Below are positions 24,977-57,818 of a DNA stretch of 64,000 bases, in pieces (the stretch's first letter is position 1; each line of letters opens with the position of its first letter). The translations under genes and the position numbers were made by a program. The notes beneath the pieces were generated by a model, which did no database searches, was not told the origin of the DNA, and was given only the letters and a program-made list of their open reading frames with translations. Source of the DNA: Acidimicrobiaceae bacterium (GTDB taxonomy: Bacteria > Actinomycetota > Acidimicrobiia > Acidimicrobiales > Ilumatobacteraceae); contig CANFUE010000012.1 in the NCBI GenBank assembly GCA_947450115.1, positions 1 through 64,000 on the forward strand. The letters run 5' to 3'.

Positions 24977-26245
24977 ACGAGTGACAACCTCTTCTCGGCA
25001 TCTGCTGCAGAGCAACTGCAGCGACAAGCTCCTCTCGCTGCACGCCTGCGGCCGCGGTCTCTCGATGAGGTTGTTGGTCAAGAGCACCTTGTTGGCGTAG
25101 GCAAACCGCTGCGTGTACTGATTGAAAGCGATCAGCTATCGTCGGTCATTTTGTGGGGGCCACCAGGAATCGGCAAAACATCACTCGCTGAAGTGATGGC
25201 ATCACAATCAAGTTCACACTTCGTACGATTGTCGGCTGTCTCAGCTGGTGTCAAAGATATTCGTGAAACCATTACTCAGGCTCAACAGCTACTGGGTGAA
25301 AAGCAGCGTCGCACGATGGTGTTTATCGACGAGATCCATCGGTTCAGCACTTCTCAACAAGACGCTTTGCTCCCCGCAGTGGAAAGTGGATTAATAGTTC
25401 TCGTTGGGGCCACAACAGAAAATCCCTTTTTTGAGGTAAATGCTCCTTTGCGGAGTCGTTCTACATTGTTCCATCTCGAGCCATTATCGGCATCAGATTT
25501 AGCTGTTTTGGTAGAGCGTGGTTGTGCTGCAGAAAATGCGCACCTAGAAGACATTGCTCAAAAACACCTTTTAGATAGGGCCCAAGGCGATGGTCGCCAA
25601 ATTCTGACATCGTTAGAGGTTGCATGTGCTTTGGCACGTAGCGGTGAAAAAAATACAACAGGCAAGCTAGTCGTGGTTTCTTTAGGCAATGTGGAAGATG
25701 CTCTCAGCACAAGCGCGCTACGTTACGGCCGAGATGACCACTACGACGTCATCTCGGCGTTCATCAAGAGCATTCGCGGTTCCGCAGTCGATGCGGCAAT
25801 TCATTGGTTGGCGCGGATGTTGGTTGCAGGTGAAGACCCCAAGTTCATCGCGCGGCGACTCATGATTTTGGCAAGTGAAGATATTGGAATGGCAGACCCT
25901 ACTTCGCTACTCGTTGCCACAGCATGTGCTCAGGCAGTGGAGCATGTCGGCATGCCAGAGGCACAACTTAATCTTGCTCAAGCAACCATTCATTTAGCGG
26001 CTGCTCCGAAAAGCAATACAACGTCACTCGCAATTTGGAATGCGATGAGTGATGTCCGCAGTGGGGGAATTGGTGAGGTGCCACTCTTTCTTCGCGACGG
26101 TCATTATCAGGGTGCTGAAACCTTGGGTCACGGTGCAGGGTATGTTTCACCACACGTTGCGACTTCGAACAACCCCGCGGCACTAGCGAACGATTACTTG
26201 CCCGAGGCTTTACAGGGTCGCCACTACTACGATGAGACCTTATGA
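24977..26245 (+). CDS. rarA: Replication-associated recombination ATPase RarA/MgsA (non-canonical start, probably ACG)
   Basis: AAA+ protein acting at stalled replication forks. Walker A GPPGIGKT, Walker B FIDEIHRF and GATTENPFFEVN are clear. Conserved sequence continues upstream of Walker A: PLAARLRPRSLDEVVGQEHLVG. The frame is closed by TAA at 24962, and no ATG, GTG or TTG occurs before the TTG at 25151, which lies right at Walker A. An ACG at 24977 gives (M)SDNLFSASAAEQ, matching the MSDxLF N-terminus I recall for actinobacterial RarA, and AGGA (24968-24971) is 5 bases upstream. CTG 25016 is an alternative. At 422 residues the length is normal. A sequencing error or mutation of ATG to ACG cannot be excluded. 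Confidence 0.85.
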   Translation, partial: TSDNLFSASAAEQLQRQAPLAARLRPRSLDEVVGQEHLVGVGKPLRVLIESDQLSSVILWGPPGIGKTSLAEVMASQSSSHFVRLSAVSAGVKDIRETITQAQQLLGEKQRRTMVFIDEIHRFSTSQQDALLPAVESGLIVLVGATTENPFFEVNAPLRSRSTLFHLEPLSASDLAVLVERGCAAENAHLEDIAQKHLLDRAQGDGRQILTSLEVACALARSGEKNTTGKLVVVSLGNVEDALSTSALRYGRDDHYDVISAFIKSIRGSAVDAAIHWLARMLVAGEDPKFIARRLMILASEDIGMADPTSLLVATACAQAVEHVGMPEAQLNLAQATIHLAAAPKSNTTSLAIWNAMSDVRSGGIGEVPLFLRDGHYQGAETLGHGAGYVSPHVATSNNPAALANDYLPEALQGRHYYDETL

Positions 26246-48407: not shown

Positions 48408-49597
48408 GCAAGTACACATTTACATCAGAGAGCGTCACCGAGGGTCACCCCGACAAAATGGCAGACCAAGTGTCTGATGCCGTGCTCGATGCCATCTTGA
48501 CCGAAGACCCCCATGCTCGTGTTGCCTGTGAAACATTGCTCACCACTGGCTTGTGCATCGTTGCTGGTGAAATTTCAACAAATGCATACGTTCCTATTCC
48601 CGACATTGCTCGTGCAGTCATCAATGAAATTGGCTACGACAATGCCCTCTATGGTTTCGACGGCAACACGTGCGGAGTCATGGTTACCCTCGATGCGCAA
48701 AGCCCCGACATTGCTCAAGGCGTCGACTCCAGCGAAGAAGTGCGTAAGGGTAAAAGCGGCGAAGATATTTTGAACAGTCAAGGTGCTGGCGACCAAGGAA
48801 TGATGTTTGGTTATGCATGCAACGAGACCGACGACCTCATGCCGCTTCCTATTTGGCTTGCGCATCGCATGGCAGAACGCCTCACCGAAGTGCGTAAGTC
48901 GGGTGCCATTCCATATTTGCGCCCAGATGGTAAGACGCAAGTGACTTTCGACTACGAAGACGGCAAGCCAGTTCGCTTGAAGACCGTTCTCATTTCTACA
49001 CAACACGCTGCAGAAGCCGATCGCGACACCGTCATTCGTCCCGACCTCATCGAGCAAGTCATTCGCCCAGTCATTCCTGCGCAGTTTCTCGACGACAACT
49101 ACGACATCTTCGTCAACCCAACAGGCAAGTTTGTTTTGGGTGGGCCACATGCCGACACCGGGCTCACTGGTCGCAAAATCATTGTCGATACATACGGTGG
49201 TATGGGTCGTCACGGCGGTGGAGCCTTCTCGGGTAAAGACCCTTCAAAGGTCGACCGTTCAGGTGCCTATGCAGCACGTTGGGTAGCCAAGCACGTTGTT
49301 GCCTCAGGTGCTGCAACTCGTTGTGAAGTGCAAGTTGCCTACGCAATTGGTGTTGCGCATCCTGTCAGCATTTTGGTGGAGACATTCGGAACTGAAGTGG
49401 TCCCAAATGCCGTTATCGAAGAAGCAGTGCGCAACGTTTTCGACCTGCGCCCAGCTGCAATTGTGCGCGATCTCGACCTCAAGCGTCCGATCTATCGTAA
49501 GACCGCTGCATATGGTCACTTTGGTCGTGCGTTGCCACAGTTCTCGTGGGAGCACACGTCGCGTCTCGCCGATTTCAAGGCGGCTGTCAAGCTCTGA
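48404..49597 (+). CDS. metK: S-adenosylmethionine synthase
   Basis: Makes SAM from ATP and methionine. The 397-residue product has [32 protein letters not shown], and [19 protein letters not shown] with phosphate-binding residues. GTG 48404 overlaps coaBC. No SAM riboswitch is possible in this overlap, so control must come from further upstream. SAM made here feeds queA and the methyltransferases in the window. Confidence 0.97.
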
Positions 49598-49608
49598 ACC
49601 AGCATGAG

Positions 49609-51384
49609 TTGATCTCCTCTCCCTCATTGGGTGGGCGCATTGTGCGCGTGGTGCCCGATGTGAGCGGAGTCAATAAAGTCTTCGATTATCTCGTTCCTGA
49701 GACATTGAAAAATGTCAAGGTCGGAAGTGTCGTTCGTGTCGAGTTACATGGTCGTCGTGTGGATGCATGGGTTGTCTCTGAAGTTGAATATCCGTCAAGC
49801 GACATCAATTTCAAAGAGGTCTTAAGTTTTCTCTCGGAAGGCCCTTCTGAGGAAGTAGTGCAACTCTCACAGTGGGCAGCTGAACGTTTTTGTGGTCCGT
49901 TACGAGCCGTGTTGTCGTCTGCGAGTCCTGCGCTGCGCATTAAGAAATTGGGCACGCGACACGGTGGAGCATCACGCAAATCAGGTCAGCGCAGTGTGGT
50001 TGACGAAGCTGAAGAGCTTTTTCACAACAAACGAGGAGGGGTGCTTGTATGGCCAGCACCACGACCTTTGCGCCCAGTGCTTGAACCAGGGATCTCACGA
50101 GGCAGAACTCTTGTTGTCACTCCTTCCGTTGGTTTTGCGCGCACCATTGCTCAAGCCCTGCGACGCGAGGGTTTGTCGGTTGCGTTAATGCCCGACGACT
50201 GGCAGCGCGCTGCTGAAGGCGTCGATGTGGTGGTGGGTGCGCGCAGCGCAGTGTGGGCGTCAATTCCCGAGCTCAAGAGCATCATTGTTCTCGATGAACA
50301 TGATGAACGCTTGCAAGATGAGCGCAGCCCTACATGGCATGCACGCGATGTGGCTATTGAAAGAGCGCGGGCATTAGGTATCCCTTGTGTGTTGGTTTCC
50401 CCGCTTCCCACAGTTTCGGCAACCCATTGGGCTGGTGCAGAAGCGGTCAGATTCGTCGAGCAGGTTGCAGGCGATTGGCCTCCTATTGAGGTGGTTGACC
50501 CCTACAGCGATTTGGGAGATGAAGAAAAACCACAATTTGGACTTCTTTCGTCACGGCTCATTGAAGTGTTACGTGACAAGACACAAACGGTGGTGTGCAT
50601 TTTGAATACCAAGGGCCGGTCGCGGTTGCTGTCGTGCAGGGCGTGTAAGGCCATTATTCGCTGTGAAAACTGTGATGCTGCAGTGATTCAAAATGAAGAA
50701 GGGCTTCTGGAATGTAATCGTTGTGGTGTTCATCGCCCTTCCACATGCCAGTCGTGTTCAAGTAATGCACTTGCCTTACTCCGCAAGGGAGTTGCCAAAA
50801 TGCGTGATGAAATAGAAAAGGCGGCCTTACGACAAGTCGTGGAACTTTCGGCAGATACAACTATTGCCGCAAATGCGTCTTCTCTGGTGTACATCGGCAC
50901 CGAAGCAGCCTTGCACCGTGTGTCGTCGGCCGATGTGGTCGTTTTTTTAGATTTTGACAATGAGTTGTTTGCGCCTACTTACAGAGCAGGGGAACAGGCA
51001 TGGACCTTGTTGATACATGCAATACGACTACTCAAGGGCTCTAGTAGAGCGCTCATTGTCTTGCAGTCGCAAGATGCGTCAAATCCGCAGTACAGCGACT
51101 TTGTAGAGCCAGAGCCTCGACAGTTCATAGAACGCGAGCAAAACAAACGTAAGGCGATGCAGTTACCACCGTATGCGGCGATGGCGCGAATGGTTTTTGC
51201 CGACTCATCGTTCAATCCCGCCGACTGGGCTCATTGCAATCTTTCATTTTCTGCGAGTGCGAAACCGACAGAGTTTCTCGTTCGTGCTGCAAATAACGAA
51301 TTACTTACACAAGGCATAAAGCAGTTGCGCGGCGAGTTCTCAGGTCGCTTCCGTTGCTATGTCGACCCCATGCGTTACGCGTAA
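49609..51384 (+). CDS. priA: Primosomal protein PriA, ATPase-deficient actinobacterial form
   Basis: Replication restart protein of about 591 residues. It keeps the N-terminal DNA-binding domain (VRVVPDVSGVNKVFDYLVPE) and the eight-cysteine zinc module (CRAC, CENC, CNRC, CQSC), plus DEHDE at motif II. There is no Walker A GKT; the region reads GGVLVWPAPRPLRPVLE. Loss of the ATPase is known for actinobacterial PriA. The start is uncertain: TTG 49609 lies 11 bases after metK, with TTG 49627 and GTG 49642 as alternatives. Its 3' end overlaps the convergent methyltransferase gene by 45 bases. Confidence 0.88.
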   Translation: MISSPSLGGRIVRVVPDVSGVNKVFDYLVPETLKNVKVGSVVRVELHGRRVDAWVVSEVEYPSSDINFKEVLSFLSEGPSEEVVQLSQWAAERFCGPLRAVLSSASPALRIKKLGTRHGGASRKSGQRSVVDEAEELFHNKRGGVLVWPAPRPLRPVLEPGISRGRTLVVTPSVGFARTIAQALRREGLSVALMPDDWQRAAEGVDVVVGARSAVWASIPELKSIIVLDEHDERLQDERSPTWHARDVAIERARALGIPCVLVSPLPTVSATHWAGAEAVRFVEQVAGDWPPIEVVDPYSDLGDEEKPQFGLLSSRLIEVLRDKTQTVVCILNTKGRSRLLSCRACKAIIRCENCDAAVIQNEEGLLECNRCGVHRPSTCQSCSSNALALLRKGVAKMRDEIEKAALRQVVELSADTTIAANASSLVYIGTEAALHRVSSADVVVFLDFDNELFAPTYRAGEQAWTLLIHAIRLLKGSSRALIVLQSQDASNPQYSDFVEPEPRQFIEREQNKRKAMQLPPYAAMARMVFADSSFNPADWAHCNLSFSASAKPTEFLVRAANNELLTQGIKQLRGEFSGRFRCYVDPMRYA

Positions 51385-51984
51385 GACCCGAAAACCCTTT
51401 TTGCTACCGAGGCGTTTGACGGCGTAACCATTTTCTTCAATCCATTGTGCGAGCGAATCGGATCCGAGATTTTTTTGCACAACAAGCCATGCTTCTCCCG
51501 TTGGAGTTAAACGAGGTAACCACCTCATCAGCAACTCGTGTAAAGCTTCTTTGCCGATACGAATGGGTGGGTTACTCCAAATGAGGTCGAACTGAATATC
51601 GCTCGGAACATTGTCAGGGGATTCCACGTGAATATTTTTGAGCTGCGCAATATTGATGTTGCGCAGTACAAGGTCGCGGGCGCGCGGGTTCACATCGATA
51701 GCCCAGACCTTGCTCGCAGGTGCAAGTTTTGCCATGCACAAAGACATTGGCCCCCAGCCACAGCCGAGGTCGAGAAAATTGCCTTGGTCCGGAGGGAGAG
51801 GCACCAGAGAGAAAAAGACTGCAGTTCCTCTGTCGAGGTGGTCGTAGCTAAAGACGCCCCTGTCGCTTTTGGCGAGAAAATCATGACCAAAAGCATTCCA
51901 ATTGACATCTCTTACTGCAGAGCCAATTTTGGCAAGGTCACCTTCTTCAGAGGAAAAGTAATGTTGCTGCGCTCCGGAGTTCAT
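51340..51984 (-). CDS. RsmC-like class I methyltransferase (MTS domain)
   Basis: SAM-dependent methyltransferase of 214 residues. Motif I is DLGCGWGPMS and motif IV is WSNPPIRIG, the NPP type used for base N-methylation, as in RsmC (16S rRNA G1207). Target assignment is by family only. The ATG at 51984 is preferred over upstream starts that run into def. It is divergent from def with a 19-base gap, and the def promoter lies at least partly inside its 5' end. Confidence 0.82.
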   Translation of the reverse strand: MNSGAQQHYFSSEEGDLAKIGSAVRDVNWNAFGHDFLAKSDRGVFSYDHLDRGTAVFFSLVPLPPDQGNFLDLGCGWGPMSLCMAKLAPASKVWAIDVNPRARDLVLRNINIAQLKNIHVESPDNVPSDIQFDLIWSNPPIRIGKEALHELLMRWLPRLTPTGEAWLVVQKNLGSDSLAQWIEENGYAVKRLGSKKGFRVLRVTHGVDIATEAT

Positions 51985-51996
51985 CGTAGATAGCCT
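51964..51996 (+). promoter_or_regulatory. Predicted promoter of def
   Basis: TTGCTG (51964-51969) and TAGATA (51987-51992) are spaced by 17 bases. The overlapping hexamer TAGCCT (51991-51996) fits TANNNT and ends 7 bases before the GTG at 52004. Either implies a very short or absent leader. The -35 lies within the first codons of the divergent methyltransferase gene. Confidence 0.45.
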
Positions 51997-52003
51997 TACA
52001 GGT

Positions 52004-52555
52004 GTGGGATACGAAATCAGGACATATGGCGATCCGGTATTGAAGTCGCAATCGCTTGCAATTGAAAATATCGACGACAAGCTCGTGCGTTTAACCGACG
52101 CAATGTTCGACATCATGTATGAAGCGCCGGGTATCGGCTTGGCTGCTCCTCAAATTGGTGTTCAAAAACAACTCTTCGTCTATGACATTGGCGATGGGGC
52201 AGATGTGCTCATCAACCCTGTTGTGGTGGAATCAAGCGGGGAATGGGTTTACGAAGAGGGTTGTCTGTCTATCCCTGGTTTGTACGTCGAGATGGTTCGG
52301 CCAAAAGAGATTCTGCTGAAAGGCATCAATATCGACGGCGAAGAAGTATCAGTCGAAGCCGACGAACTCTTGTCACGGCTCTTTCAGCACGAACTCGACC
52401 ATTTGAATGGCGTTTTAATGTTTGAACGCATGACCCCCGATCAGCGAACTGAAGCGCTAGCGGAATACCGACGTTTAACCGATGCACTCGACGATGCCTC
52501 AGGGGCACGAGAGAAAATCAAAAGCCAAGAGCCCAAGGTCATCAAGCTGAAGTAG
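52004..52555 (+). CDS. def: Peptide deformylase
   Basis: Removes the formyl group from nascent proteins. All three motifs are present: GIGLAAPQ (43-50), EGCLS (85-89) with metal ligand C87, and HELDH (129-133). The 183-residue length is normal. GTG 52004 is just after the predicted promoter. It is paired with fmt, the gene for the opposing formylation step, with only 17 bases between the def stop and the chosen fmt start. Confidence 0.95.
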   Translation: MGYEIRTYGDPVLKSQSLAIENIDDKLVRLTDAMFDIMYEAPGIGLAAPQIGVQKQLFVYDIGDGADVLINPVVVESSGEWVYEEGCLSIPGLYVEMVRPKEILLKGINIDGEEVSVEADELLSRLFQHELDHLNGVLMFERMTPDQRTEALAEYRRLTDALDDASGAREKIKSQEPKVIKLK

Positions 52556-52572
52556 GAATCATCGCAACACAA

Positions 52573-53547
52573 CTGGTACCCGCGCCTTCTGGGCCTACTG
52601 AACGCGTCATCTTTTTTGGTACTCCAGAAATCTCGAGCGAAGTTCTTGTAATGCTCATTGAGAATGGAATACGTGTTGAAGCTGTTGTAACGCGACCCGA
52701 CAAGCGTCGCGGGCGCGGTTCTGAAACTTCACCTTCGCCTGTGAAAGCAACTGCAGCTCGTTTCAATATCCCGTGTTTCGATGCCATCGACACAGTGGTG
52801 GCAGAACTCAACAACCAAGAATCTCTCGCAGGCGTGACCGGTGTTGTGGTTGCCTACGGGCGCATCTTGAAAGAGCCGGTCATTTCTTTGATCCCGCTTG
52901 TCAATCTCCATTTCTCGCTGTTGCCACGTTGGCGTGGCGCTGCACCTGTTGAGCGCGCAATCTTCAGTGGTGATGCAAAGACTGGTTCGAGCATCATGCA
53001 AATAGAAGAGGGTCTCGATACGGGCGGTGTGTACGCAGTAGAGGAAGTGGAAATACTCTCTCATGAGAGCGCAGATGAGTTGCGTTCACGACTCGGAGTG
53101 GTGGGAGCTCGCCAATTAGTGCAACTGTTGCGTCATGGCTTTCCTCAGCCAATAGTGCAAGTGGGAGAGCCGGTACATGCCGAAAAGATCTCTCCGGTTG
53201 AGTTGCAAATTCATTGGAGCCAGCCAGCAATCAATGCACATCGACAAGTTCGTGTTGGCGGGGCATTTACCTATTTTCGCAATTCGCGCGTGAAAGTTCT
53301 CGATGCTTGTGTGTACAACACTGCTGCCGAGAACGCTGCCGAGAGCGGTTTTTCTGCGGGGGAAATAGTGCAACTGCGCAAAGATGGAGTTGTGGTGCAG
53401 ACGGATGATGGTCAGCTCCTCATTTCACATGTGCAAGCAGAGAGCAAAAAACCGATGCTCGCTCGAGACTGGGCAAATGGATTGCGGGTTTCTACTGGCG
53501 ATTATTTTGAGTTCGTTACTTCTTCTCCACATAAGGATGTTTCATGA
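52573..53547 (+). CDS. fmt: Methionyl-tRNA formyltransferase (non-canonical start, CTG or ATC)
   Basis: Formylates initiator Met-tRNA. The conserved N-terminus RVIFFGTPEISSEVL, the VNLHFSLLPRWRGAAP block with catalytic Asn and His (about 111 and 113), and D149 in EGLDTGG are intact. No ATG, GTG or TTG occurs between the in-frame stop at 52450 and the ATG at 52651, and that ATG lies after the GTPE motif. I give CTG 52573 as start (324 residues, normal). ATC 52561, close to AGGA (52554-52557) at the def stop, is an alternative. mog overlaps the 3' end by ATGA. Confidence 0.85.
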   Translation: MVPAPSGPTERVIFFGTPEISSEVLVMLIENGIRVEAVVTRPDKRRGRGSETSPSPVKATAARFNIPCFDAIDTVVAELNNQESLAGVTGVVVAYGRILKEPVISLIPLVNLHFSLLPRWRGAAPVERAIFSGDAKTGSSIMQIEEGLDTGGVYAVEEVEILSHESADELRSRLGVVGARQLVQLLRHGFPQPIVQVGEPVHAEKISPVELQIHWSQPAINAHRQVRVGGAFTYFRNSRVKVLDACVYNTAAENAAESGFSAGEIVQLRKDGVVVQTDDGQLLISHVQAESKKPMLARDWANGLRVSTGDYFEFVTSSPHKDVS

Positions 53548-55766: not shown

Positions 55767-56438
55767 ATAGCTACGGCGACGAACGAACCACGGTACAACG
55801 ATCGCATTCGGGCACGAGAAGTACGTCTCATCGACGCACTAGGCAACCAGTTGGGCATCAAAACCCTTCCAGAAGCACTCGAACTTGCCAAGCAGTCCGA
55901 CCTCGACTTAGTTGAGGTTGCACCGCTAGCAGTTCCGCCCGTATGTCGCATCATGGACTACGGAAAGTTCCGCTACGAAGAAGCACAAAAGGCAAAAGAG
56001 TCGAGAAAAAAGACCACGCAGGTCACCATTAAGGAAGTGAAGCTTCGCCCCAAAATTGGTAAGGGCGACTTCGATACCAAGGTGCGTCACATGCATGACT
56101 TTTTAGAAGACGGACACAAAGTGAAAGTCACTTTGCAATTCAGGGGCCGCGAAATGGCTCACCCTGAGTTGGGGTCCCGATTGCTCGACAATGTCATTGA
56201 ACAGTTAGGCGAGGGAGTCCGAGTGGAAACCCAAGCCCGACTTGAAGGACGAAATATGACCATGGTGTTGTCTTCAGACAAAAAAGTAGTGAAAAAGGCA
56301 GATGAAAAACCCGCTGTCAGACCTTCAGAGAAGCCAAAAGTAATTGCCGAAGCGGTACCAGTACCAGCGGCAATAACACCAGAAGTTGAAGTAAGTGTTA
56401 CCGAGTCAGGAGAAGTACATGCCGAAAATGAAAACTAG
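55767..56438 (+). CDS. infC: Translation initiation factor IF-3 (ATA start)
   Basis: Ensures correct initiator tRNA and start codon selection on the 30S subunit. The N-terminal domain reads [25 protein letters not shown], the linker [16 protein letters not shown], and the C-terminal domain [31 protein letters not shown]. The 223 residues include an extra Lys/Pro/Glu-rich tail of about 45 residues. No canonical start exists after the in-frame TGA (55758-55760). ATA 55767 lies 9 bases after AGGAG. Rare AUU/AUC/AUA starts are known for infC and allow IF3 to limit its own synthesis. It overlaps rpmI by 20 bases. Confidence 0.93.
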
Positions 56439-56667: not shown

Positions 56668-57024
56668 ATGGCCCGCGTAAAACGCGCCGTTAATGCTCGT
56701 AAGAGTCGCAAGCAGACTCTCGAGCGTGCAAAAGGTTATTACGGTAACAAGAGCCGTTCGGCTCGTGCTGCCAATGAGCAGGTAATGAAGTCAGGGCAGT
56801 ACGCCTTCCGCGACCGCCGTGCAAAGAAAGGCGAATTCCGTCGCCTCTGGATCCAGCGCATCAATGCTGGCTGCCGTATCTACGACATGAGCTATAGCCA
56901 ATTCATTGCCGGCCTCAATGCAGCAAACATTGAAGTCGATCGCAAGATCCTGGCCGACATGGCAGTTCACGACATCGACTCGTTTGGTCGCTTGGTGCAA
57001 GCCGCAAAGGCAGCGCTCGGCTGA
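56668..57024 (+). CDS. rplT: Ribosomal protein bL20
   Basis: A 118-residue 50S assembly protein. MARVKRAVNARKSRKQTLERAKGYYGNKSR and LWIQRINAGCRIYDMSYSQFI are standard. A strong Shine-Dalgarno (AAAGGAG) precedes ATG 56668. In other bacteria L20 can repress this operon by binding its leader. It follows rpmI by 51 bases. Confidence 0.98.
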   Translation: MARVKRAVNARKSRKQTLERAKGYYGNKSRSARAANEQVMKSGQYAFRDRRAKKGEFRRLWIQRINAGCRIYDMSYSQFIAGLNAANIEVDRKILADMAVHDIDSFGRLVQAAKAALG

Positions 57025-57044
57025 ATCAGCCCCTTGTAAGTTTT

Positions 57045-57818
57045 ACGAGCACCCCAGTTCGTCGGCTGCGCCAATTGCTCTCTGAGCGAAAGGAACGCTA
57101 CGAATCGGGGTGCTTCGTTGTTGAAGGGCCCACTTTGGTGCAGGCCGCTCTCGACGCTGGACTCGAACTCATTGAGCAGTTCGTCTGCGAAGGAACGCGT
57201 CCATGTGTTGCTCCTGGTGAAGTGCATTTCATAAGTCAAAATACATTGGAGCGTGTTTCCACAACGGTGACACCACAAAAGGTACTTGGAGTGTTTGCGA
57301 TGCAGACCCCAGACCTCTCGGCCTTGGTCGAAATGTCGCCGTCGCATTCTTTAGAGCCACAATGGATTCTTGTTGCTGATCGAGTTGCAGACCCAGGAAA
57401 CCTTGGCACCATGATTCGTAGCGCAGTTGCTGCAGGTGCAAGTGCCATTGTTCTTACCCCCGGAACTGTTGACCCTTATTCGCCAAAGGTCGTGCGGTCT
57501 GCTGCTGGGGCAATCTTCTCGAGCGTAGTGTTCTCATCGGTTTCTCTGTCTCAACTCGCTGAGATGAAGTGGCCGCTCTTGGGTACGACTTCACATGAAA
57601 AACTCAGTCCACTCGCGTACGACGAAGCGGTGTTGACCTCGGGCATCGCACTGGTCATGGGTAATGAAGCTGCAGGAATTGCGCTCGACCAACCCATCTC
57701 GCAGTGGATCACCATTCCCCACCAAGGGCCAGTCGAGAGTCTCAATGTGGCGATGGCCACCACTGTTTTATGTTTTGAAGTCGCACGGCAGCGAAAACAC
57801 CACGCTTCTGGTGTCTGA
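57045..57818 (+). CDS. SpoU-family rRNA/tRNA 2'-O-methyltransferase (non-canonical start, probably ACG)
   Basis: SPOUT-fold RNA ribose methyltransferase, like the TsnR/RlmB genes found between rplT and pheS. DPGNLGTMIRSAVAAGA, LVMGNEAAGI and ESLNVAMA are the three SpoU motifs. The N-terminal substrate domain reads STPVRRLRQLLSERKERY, then GCFVVEGPTLV. The TTG at 57075 cuts off VRRLRQ, which aligns with family N-termini as I know them. Upstream there is no ATG, GTG or TTG; ACG 57045 (ACG AGC) gives 257 residues. CTG 57021, inside the rplT stop region, is another option. The exact rRNA target is not known. Confidence 0.82.
   Translation, partial: TSTPVRRLRQLLSERKERYESGCFVVEGPTLVQAALDAGLELIEQFVCEGTRPCVAPGEVHFISQNTLERVSTTVTPQKVLGVFAMQTPDLSALVEMSPSHSLEPQWILVADRVADPGNLGTMIRSAVAAGASAIVLTPGTVDPYSPKVVRSAAGAIFSSVVFSSVSLSQLAEMKWPLLGTTSHEKLSPLAYDEAVLTSGIALVMGNEAAGIALDQPISQWITIPHQGPVESLNVAMATTVLCFEVARQRKHHASGV

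Follow-up and report, generated by a model that had tools for sequence, protein, structure and literature searches.

A conserved ATC codon as the apparent start of the methionyl-tRNA formyltransferase gene in a genus of Ilumatobacteraceae

At which codon does translation of fmt, the methionyl-tRNA formyltransferase gene, begin when the reading frame offers no usual start? Fmt formylates the first amino acid of new proteins (as formyl-Met-tRNA), and peptide deformylase (Def) is the partner that removes the formyl tag. The question arises from a stretch of 64,000 nucleotides of an Acidimicrobiaceae bacterium of the Ilumatobacteraceae (contig CANFUE010000012.1, positions 1 to 64,000; hereafter, the window), in which fmt adjoins def. 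The fmt frame is free of stop codons from 52453 (the upstream in-frame stop is TGA 52450-52452) and carries the coding sequence of the Fmt signature RVIFFGTPE, beginning at 52603. An initial sequence-only reading had stated that fmt lacks a canonical start upstream of its conserved N-terminus, and this holds: between 52453 and 52651, the frame contains no ATG, GTG or TTG. Very few bacterial genes are, to our knowledge, dependent on a non-canonical start.

The identity of the gene was examined by profile comparison. Both Pfam domains of the predicted product, PF00551 (Formyl_trans_N) and PF02911 (Formyl_trans_C), are complete and score above cut-off, and the best match is TIGR00460, covering profile positions 2-310 of 315 with 196.1 bits, slightly below the cut-off of 201.5. 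The two domains, the nearly full-length TIGR00460 match and the def neighbor (NF001159, 158 bits, and TIGR00079, 142 bits, both above cut-off) identify the gene as fmt. A pseudogene was rejected, given that the gene is intact and conserved, and no second fmt was found in the same genome, where purU was the only other match. At the 5' end of def, the longest open reading frame of an RsmC-like methyltransferase gene (51340-52116, minus strand) overlaps def head-to-head; the true start of this methyltransferase is probably an ATG near 51985.

Table 1. Positions in the window of the genes, codons and motifs discussed in the text
Feature	Positions	Strand	Remarks
def, peptide deformylase	52004-52555	+	GTG start; stop TAG 52553-52555; identified from open reading frame and NCBIfam profiles
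AAGTAGG, Shine-Dalgarno-like	52550-52556	+	One mismatch to AAGGAGG; includes def stop; 4 nt before ATC
GTA, rival fmt start	52552-52554	+	Overlaps def stop (GTAG); conserved in genus
fmt, methionyl-tRNA formyltransferase	52561-53547	+	328 amino acids counted from ATC
ATC, proposed fmt start codon	52561-52563	+	Conserved in 11/11 same-genus species
CTG, rejected start candidate	52573-52575	+	CTC or CCA in L011, L012 and L013
ATG, earliest in-frame canonical start	52651-52653	+	Inside formyltransferase domain, at Pfam position 29 of 181
infC (IF3)	55767-56438	+	ATA start behind AGGAG; no in-frame ATG/GTG/TTG; TIGR00168, 215.9 bits
rarA-like AAA ATPase	24977-26245	+	ACG start behind AAGTAGG, which contains the stop of the upstream gene
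TrmH/SpoU-family RNA methyltransferase	57021-57818	+	CTG start overlapping rplT stop (CTGA)
priA	49594-51384		CTGA overlaps metK stop

If translation started at the earliest canonical codon, ATG 52651, the truncated protein would lack positions 1-28 of Formyl_trans_N, a domain that is whole when Fmt starts at 52561; this start was rejected. An indel masking a start was rejected as well: from the def stop as far as 52603, ATG, GTG and TTG are absent whichever frame is read, so that a start is not restorable by a single indel. A sequencing or assembly error, for which the sequence-only reading had left room, is excluded by ten further genomes of the same genus that share the layout. Among the stop-free stretches of 51 codons in the window, 4.9% contain no ATG, GTG or TTG; such a stretch is not rare by itself, and the evidential weight lies in conservation.

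We located fmt in 10 other species of this genus, a group of freshwater actinobacteria; Fmt identity ranges from 57 to 100%, and all of the same-genus genomes are metagenome assemblies. A canonical in-frame start is absent in all 11 species, AAGTAGGnnnnATCGC is kept in each of them, and AAGTAGGnnnnATCGCA is retained in all 11 fmt loci. When near-cognate codons are listed from the in-frame stop upstream as far as the conserved arginine, one alone is common to all 11 species, ATC 52561. The Fmt alignment of these species includes 142 columns with an invariant amino acid, only 14 of which are also invariant at the codon level; among the eight invariant isoleucine columns, the codon never varies only in the first one, ATC 52561. 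An ordinary isoleucine codon is not expected to be frozen to this extent, so the codon invariance supports a role of ATC as the start. Alignment across relatives thus reveals a conserved non-canonical codon and separates the two candidates proposed initially: ATC 52561 is the one that is conserved, whereas CTG 52573 was dropped, being lost in 3 of the 11 species. The adjacent codon, ATC 52558, was rejected too, as it varies freely (ATC, ACT, AAT, ATT, GCC, GTC).

The surroundings of the codon are equally stable. The AAGTAGG motif at the def-fmt junction, a putative Shine-Dalgarno sequence of fmt, is unchanged in all 11 species, and so is the entire AAGTAGG-N4-ATC-GCA layout; in each species, the ATC begins 5 nt past the def TAG, the arrangement of a termination-reinitiation pair. 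In other genera, the GTG or ATG starts of fmt lie within about one codon of the position of ATC 52561. Translation of fmt appears to begin at ATC 52561, and, having an invariant ATC and no canonical start, the gene seems to belong to the class with conserved near-cognate starts.

We favor, with moderate confidence, the interpretation that fmt is an intact, predicted functional gene with an AUC start that is translated through attenuated re-initiation after def, keeping Fmt below Def. Ribosomes finishing def would terminate at the UAG within AAGUAGG, with the AUC 5 nt beyond; base pairing between AAGUAGG and the tail of the 16S rRNA would keep the ribosome, or the 30S subunit, in place after termination, and it could then re-initiate at the AUC with fMet-tRNA, at a low efficiency because IF3 would discriminate against this codon. 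The weak codon may have been retained as a fixed attenuator that holds Fmt below Def in their shared operon, presumably because formylation outrunning deformylation would be toxic. In E. coli, re-initiation depends on IF2 and on a formylated initiator tRNA, and excess IF3 lowers it (PMC2268962). Loss of def is lethal unless fmt is lost as well (PMC13245402), and in yeast, the toxicity of Fmt is relieved by Def (PMC7949028); given these two observations, an Fmt level below that of Def is a plausible selected purpose. The single mismatch of AAGUAGG to the anti-Shine-Dalgarno sequence counts against the re-initiation model, and attenuation is not required, considering that most relatives outside the genus have GTG or ATG at the same junction. 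An unusual initiator tRNA was rejected because its anticodon stem is the ordinary GGG/CCC, which leaves no mark of unusually permissive machinery. A search for conserved RNA structure across the def-fmt junction found none, the consensus fold being weak (covariation term of +0.11).

To place fmt among its neighbors, 69 conserved open reading frames of the window were compared with those of a distant genome of the same genus, G012 (G005 was too close to yield conservation boundaries). In four genes (fmt, infC, one rarA-like and one of the TrmH family), conservation extends in the 5' direction beyond the first canonical start (Table 1). The ATA of infC is found in 13 of 13 same-genus genomes, and either ATA or ATC in nearly all relatives from the order that were checked; this is the known infC start pattern, an internal reference case. 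All 12 same-genus loci of the rarA-like gene have ACG, and the nearest in-frame stop upstream is just 3-5 codons away; several other genera have ATG or GTG at the homologous site. All 13 same-genus loci of the TrmH-family gene are devoid of ATG, GTG and TTG ahead of the conserved N-terminus; CTGA overlaps the rplT stop across the whole genus, and does so in 14 of the 18 relatives from the order that have rplT upstream. Behind metK, priA combines CTGA with the absence of a canonical start in relatives L036, L037, L046, L126 and L168; in the window itself, in-frame TTG codons downstream and a GTG inside metK are further possible starts. In these counts, CTGATG matches (a real ATG with a -1 overlap) were left out of CTGA, and false positives from an automatic-anchor screen of adjacent genes, such as rplT, were discarded. 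Non-canonical starts were absent or almost absent in rsmB, moaB, hisG, a second TrmH gene and def, which, compared with rarA, trmH and priA, indicates a feature of particular junctions rather than of every coupled gene. The proposed arrangement, a near-cognate start behind the stop codon of a housekeeping gene, would accordingly recur at other def-fmt junctions (with CTG or ACG), at rplT-trmH, at metK-priA and behind the gene that precedes rarA.

In other genera of Ilumatobacteraceae, fmt starts with GTG or ATG at the homologous position or close to it and encodes a similar N-terminus (for example, MTALAPLPTGPVRRVAFLGTP), and the fmt starts of the nearest sampled outgroup, G013/G039, are canonical. 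Relatives with a clear ATG or GTG at this site, which had been taken as potential evidence against a non-canonical start, therefore exist outside the genus only; within the genus there are none (0/11). Predicted non-canonical fmt starts are not confined to this genus. A canonical start is absent in 37 of 167 distinct fmt loci, compared to 0 of 124 def loci, under the same criterion of no ATG, GTG or TTG in the 30 codons that precede the conserved N-terminus. When other classes of the phylum were added and a 25-codon criterion was used, 42 of 188 fmt genes (about 22%) lacked one. Most of the start-less genes have CTG immediately before the conserved R[LIV].[FY][LF]GTP motif; in about 15-17 loci, this takes the form of CTGA overlapping a def TGA stop, and other CTG starts sit behind a good Shine-Dalgarno sequence (L026: AAGGAGCCTCGG-CTG). 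Among in-frame -4 overlaps at the def stop, CTGA is the commonest (24), followed by GTGA (18), ATGA (8) and TTGA (4), and in another family of the phylum (f64), CTGA covers the def stop in four of the five genera sampled (L274, L277, L279, L283). ACG is the apparent fmt start in L019 and L272, and ATT, behind a strong AGGAGGT, in L102 (minus strand of the locus). On an Fmt tree built with FastTree, the non-canonical state is clustered by descent and needs 15-17 changes, at least 7 of them forced by supported branches, these change counts being approximate.

Our literature searches for fmt with a non-canonical start turned up no description. An arXiv preprint by Gvozdjak and Samanta (2020) reportedly deals with genes that prefer non-AUG starts. 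The nearest known cases are infC and Streptomyces sigR. In E. coli, infC starts with AUU and is subject to autoregulation by IF3. Similarly to infC, fmt is a translation gene in an essential process with a conserved AUN near-cognate start, which in Streptomyces infC is AUC (PMC5472188). The difference is that the product of infC itself discriminates the start codon, whereas Fmt does not inspect codons; furthermore, the def stop precedes fmt by 5 nt, but infC of the window has no abutting upstream gene. In sigR, a GTC start keeps SigR below RsrA through IF3 (Feeney et al. 2017, PMC5472188). Here too, a non-canonical start is conserved in an actinobacterial genus, and in sigR it is proven to determine the relative amounts of two proteins encoded in one operon. 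However, the gene and the codon differ, sigR is the upstream gene and has an extensive AGGAGGTG ribosome-binding site, and the dependence on IF3, demonstrated for sigR, is a proposal for fmt. Like the described coupled pairs (ATGA, GTGA, TAATG), def-fmt, rplT-trmH and metK-priA are adjacent or overlapping and spaced closely enough for coupling (PMC10666635, PMC2268962), but those pairs have canonical starts, whereas the downstream codon here is CTG, ATC or ACG. Among 61,358 ancestral AUG starts, Belinky et al. 2017 (PMC5622118) found two replaced by CUG and one by AUU; CTG and ATT thus do replace canonical starts, but extremely rarely in that set, whereas fmt is non-canonical in roughly a fifth of the sampled relatives.

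Several alternatives to attenuated re-initiation have to be weighed. The codon could be tolerated without selection: at a termination-reinitiation junction, the ribosome is already in place, the codon would matter little, and near-cognates would drift in and persist. The lead of CTGA among the -4 overlaps at def-fmt and its near-fixation at rplT-trmH are compatible with drift, as is the location of all cases in the window except infC within a few nucleotides of an upstream stop. The pattern is, however, not uniform, with rsmB, moaB and the second TrmH gene having almost exclusively ATGA or GTGA; moreover, ATC is frozen at fmt although ATT and ATA would be equivalent under drift, and the ACG of rarA is likewise frozen across 12 loci. 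We therefore regard drift as rather unlikely.

The sequence-only reading had instead suggested that a weak start ties Fmt synthesis to initiation fidelity. In such a loop, the fmt AUC would sense fidelity the way infC does for IF3: low Fmt would relax discrimination, initiation at AUC would increase, and Fmt would recover. The parallel with infC is apt in so far as infC, 3 kb downstream in the window, starts with ATA (and that of Streptomyces with ATC, PMC5472188) and low Fmt lowers initiation fidelity according to a review (PMC7949028), low Fmt permitting, and extra Fmt suppressing, initiation by a 3GC-mutant initiator tRNA. The conservation of ATC 52561 across the genus and the recurrence of non-canonical starts at fmt also fit. 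Nevertheless, we consider the loop unlikely. The published effect of Fmt concerns the selection of tRNA, not of codons; re-initiation needs formylated tRNA (PMC2268962), so that the feedback would be positive, that is, of the opposite sign; and other lineages have CTG or ACG at fmt, and most have GTG or ATG. Furthermore, rarA, trmH and priA, which have no role in initiation, show similar starts right behind an upstream stop codon, which makes a loop specific to fmt unnecessary.

It is very unlikely that fmt starts at GTA 52552, as a descendant of an ancestral GTGA overlap. This codon is conserved in the genus and sits in the DNA where other genera of the family have GTGA, and GTC is proven as the start of Streptomyces sigR (PMC5472188). 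Yet GTA is fixed in any case by the lysine codon and stop of def and by the AAGTAGG motif, no Shine-Dalgarno-like sequence precedes it, and a start there would account neither for the frozen ATC and GCA codons nor for a codon at 52558 that is free to vary; in four species, moreover, rarA, which shares the AAGTAGG layout, has an in-frame TAG that leaves room for a downstream start only. Finally, a Def-Fmt fusion through -1 frameshifting or stop-codon bypass, which would need no fmt start codon, is scarcely credible: in the window, the fmt frame extends for 105 nt into def without a stop, and Exiguobacterium has functional fusions of def and fmt (PMC12690207), but in G004 (L006), a TAA 13 codons ahead of the ATC closes the frame, leaving the last 9 def codons without a slippery heptamer, the def TAG is invariant, the RNA fold across the junction is weak, as noted above, and the site carries an ordinary start in other genera.

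Beyond attenuated re-initiation at fmt, we tentatively raise the possibility that Actinomycetota, above all Acidimicrobiia, systematically use CTG, ATC or ACG at re-initiation junctions as hard-wired attenuators of low-copy enzymes encoded behind abundant ones, with def-fmt as a repeated target since Fmt must not exceed Def. Gene callers restricted to ATG, GTG and TTG truncate or mis-start conserved enzymes in Acidimicrobiia, and if the systematic use of such attenuators is real, annotation pipelines of this kind would miss or mis-start all of these genes. The def-fmt, rplT-trmH and metK-priA junctions, together with the one before rarA, make up a list for studying the choice of start codons by re-initiating ribosomes. 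The ATC of fmt, frozen in this genus, and the independent adoption of CTG and ACG elsewhere suggest that weakness of the start codon is a selectable control of the balance between formylation and deformylation.
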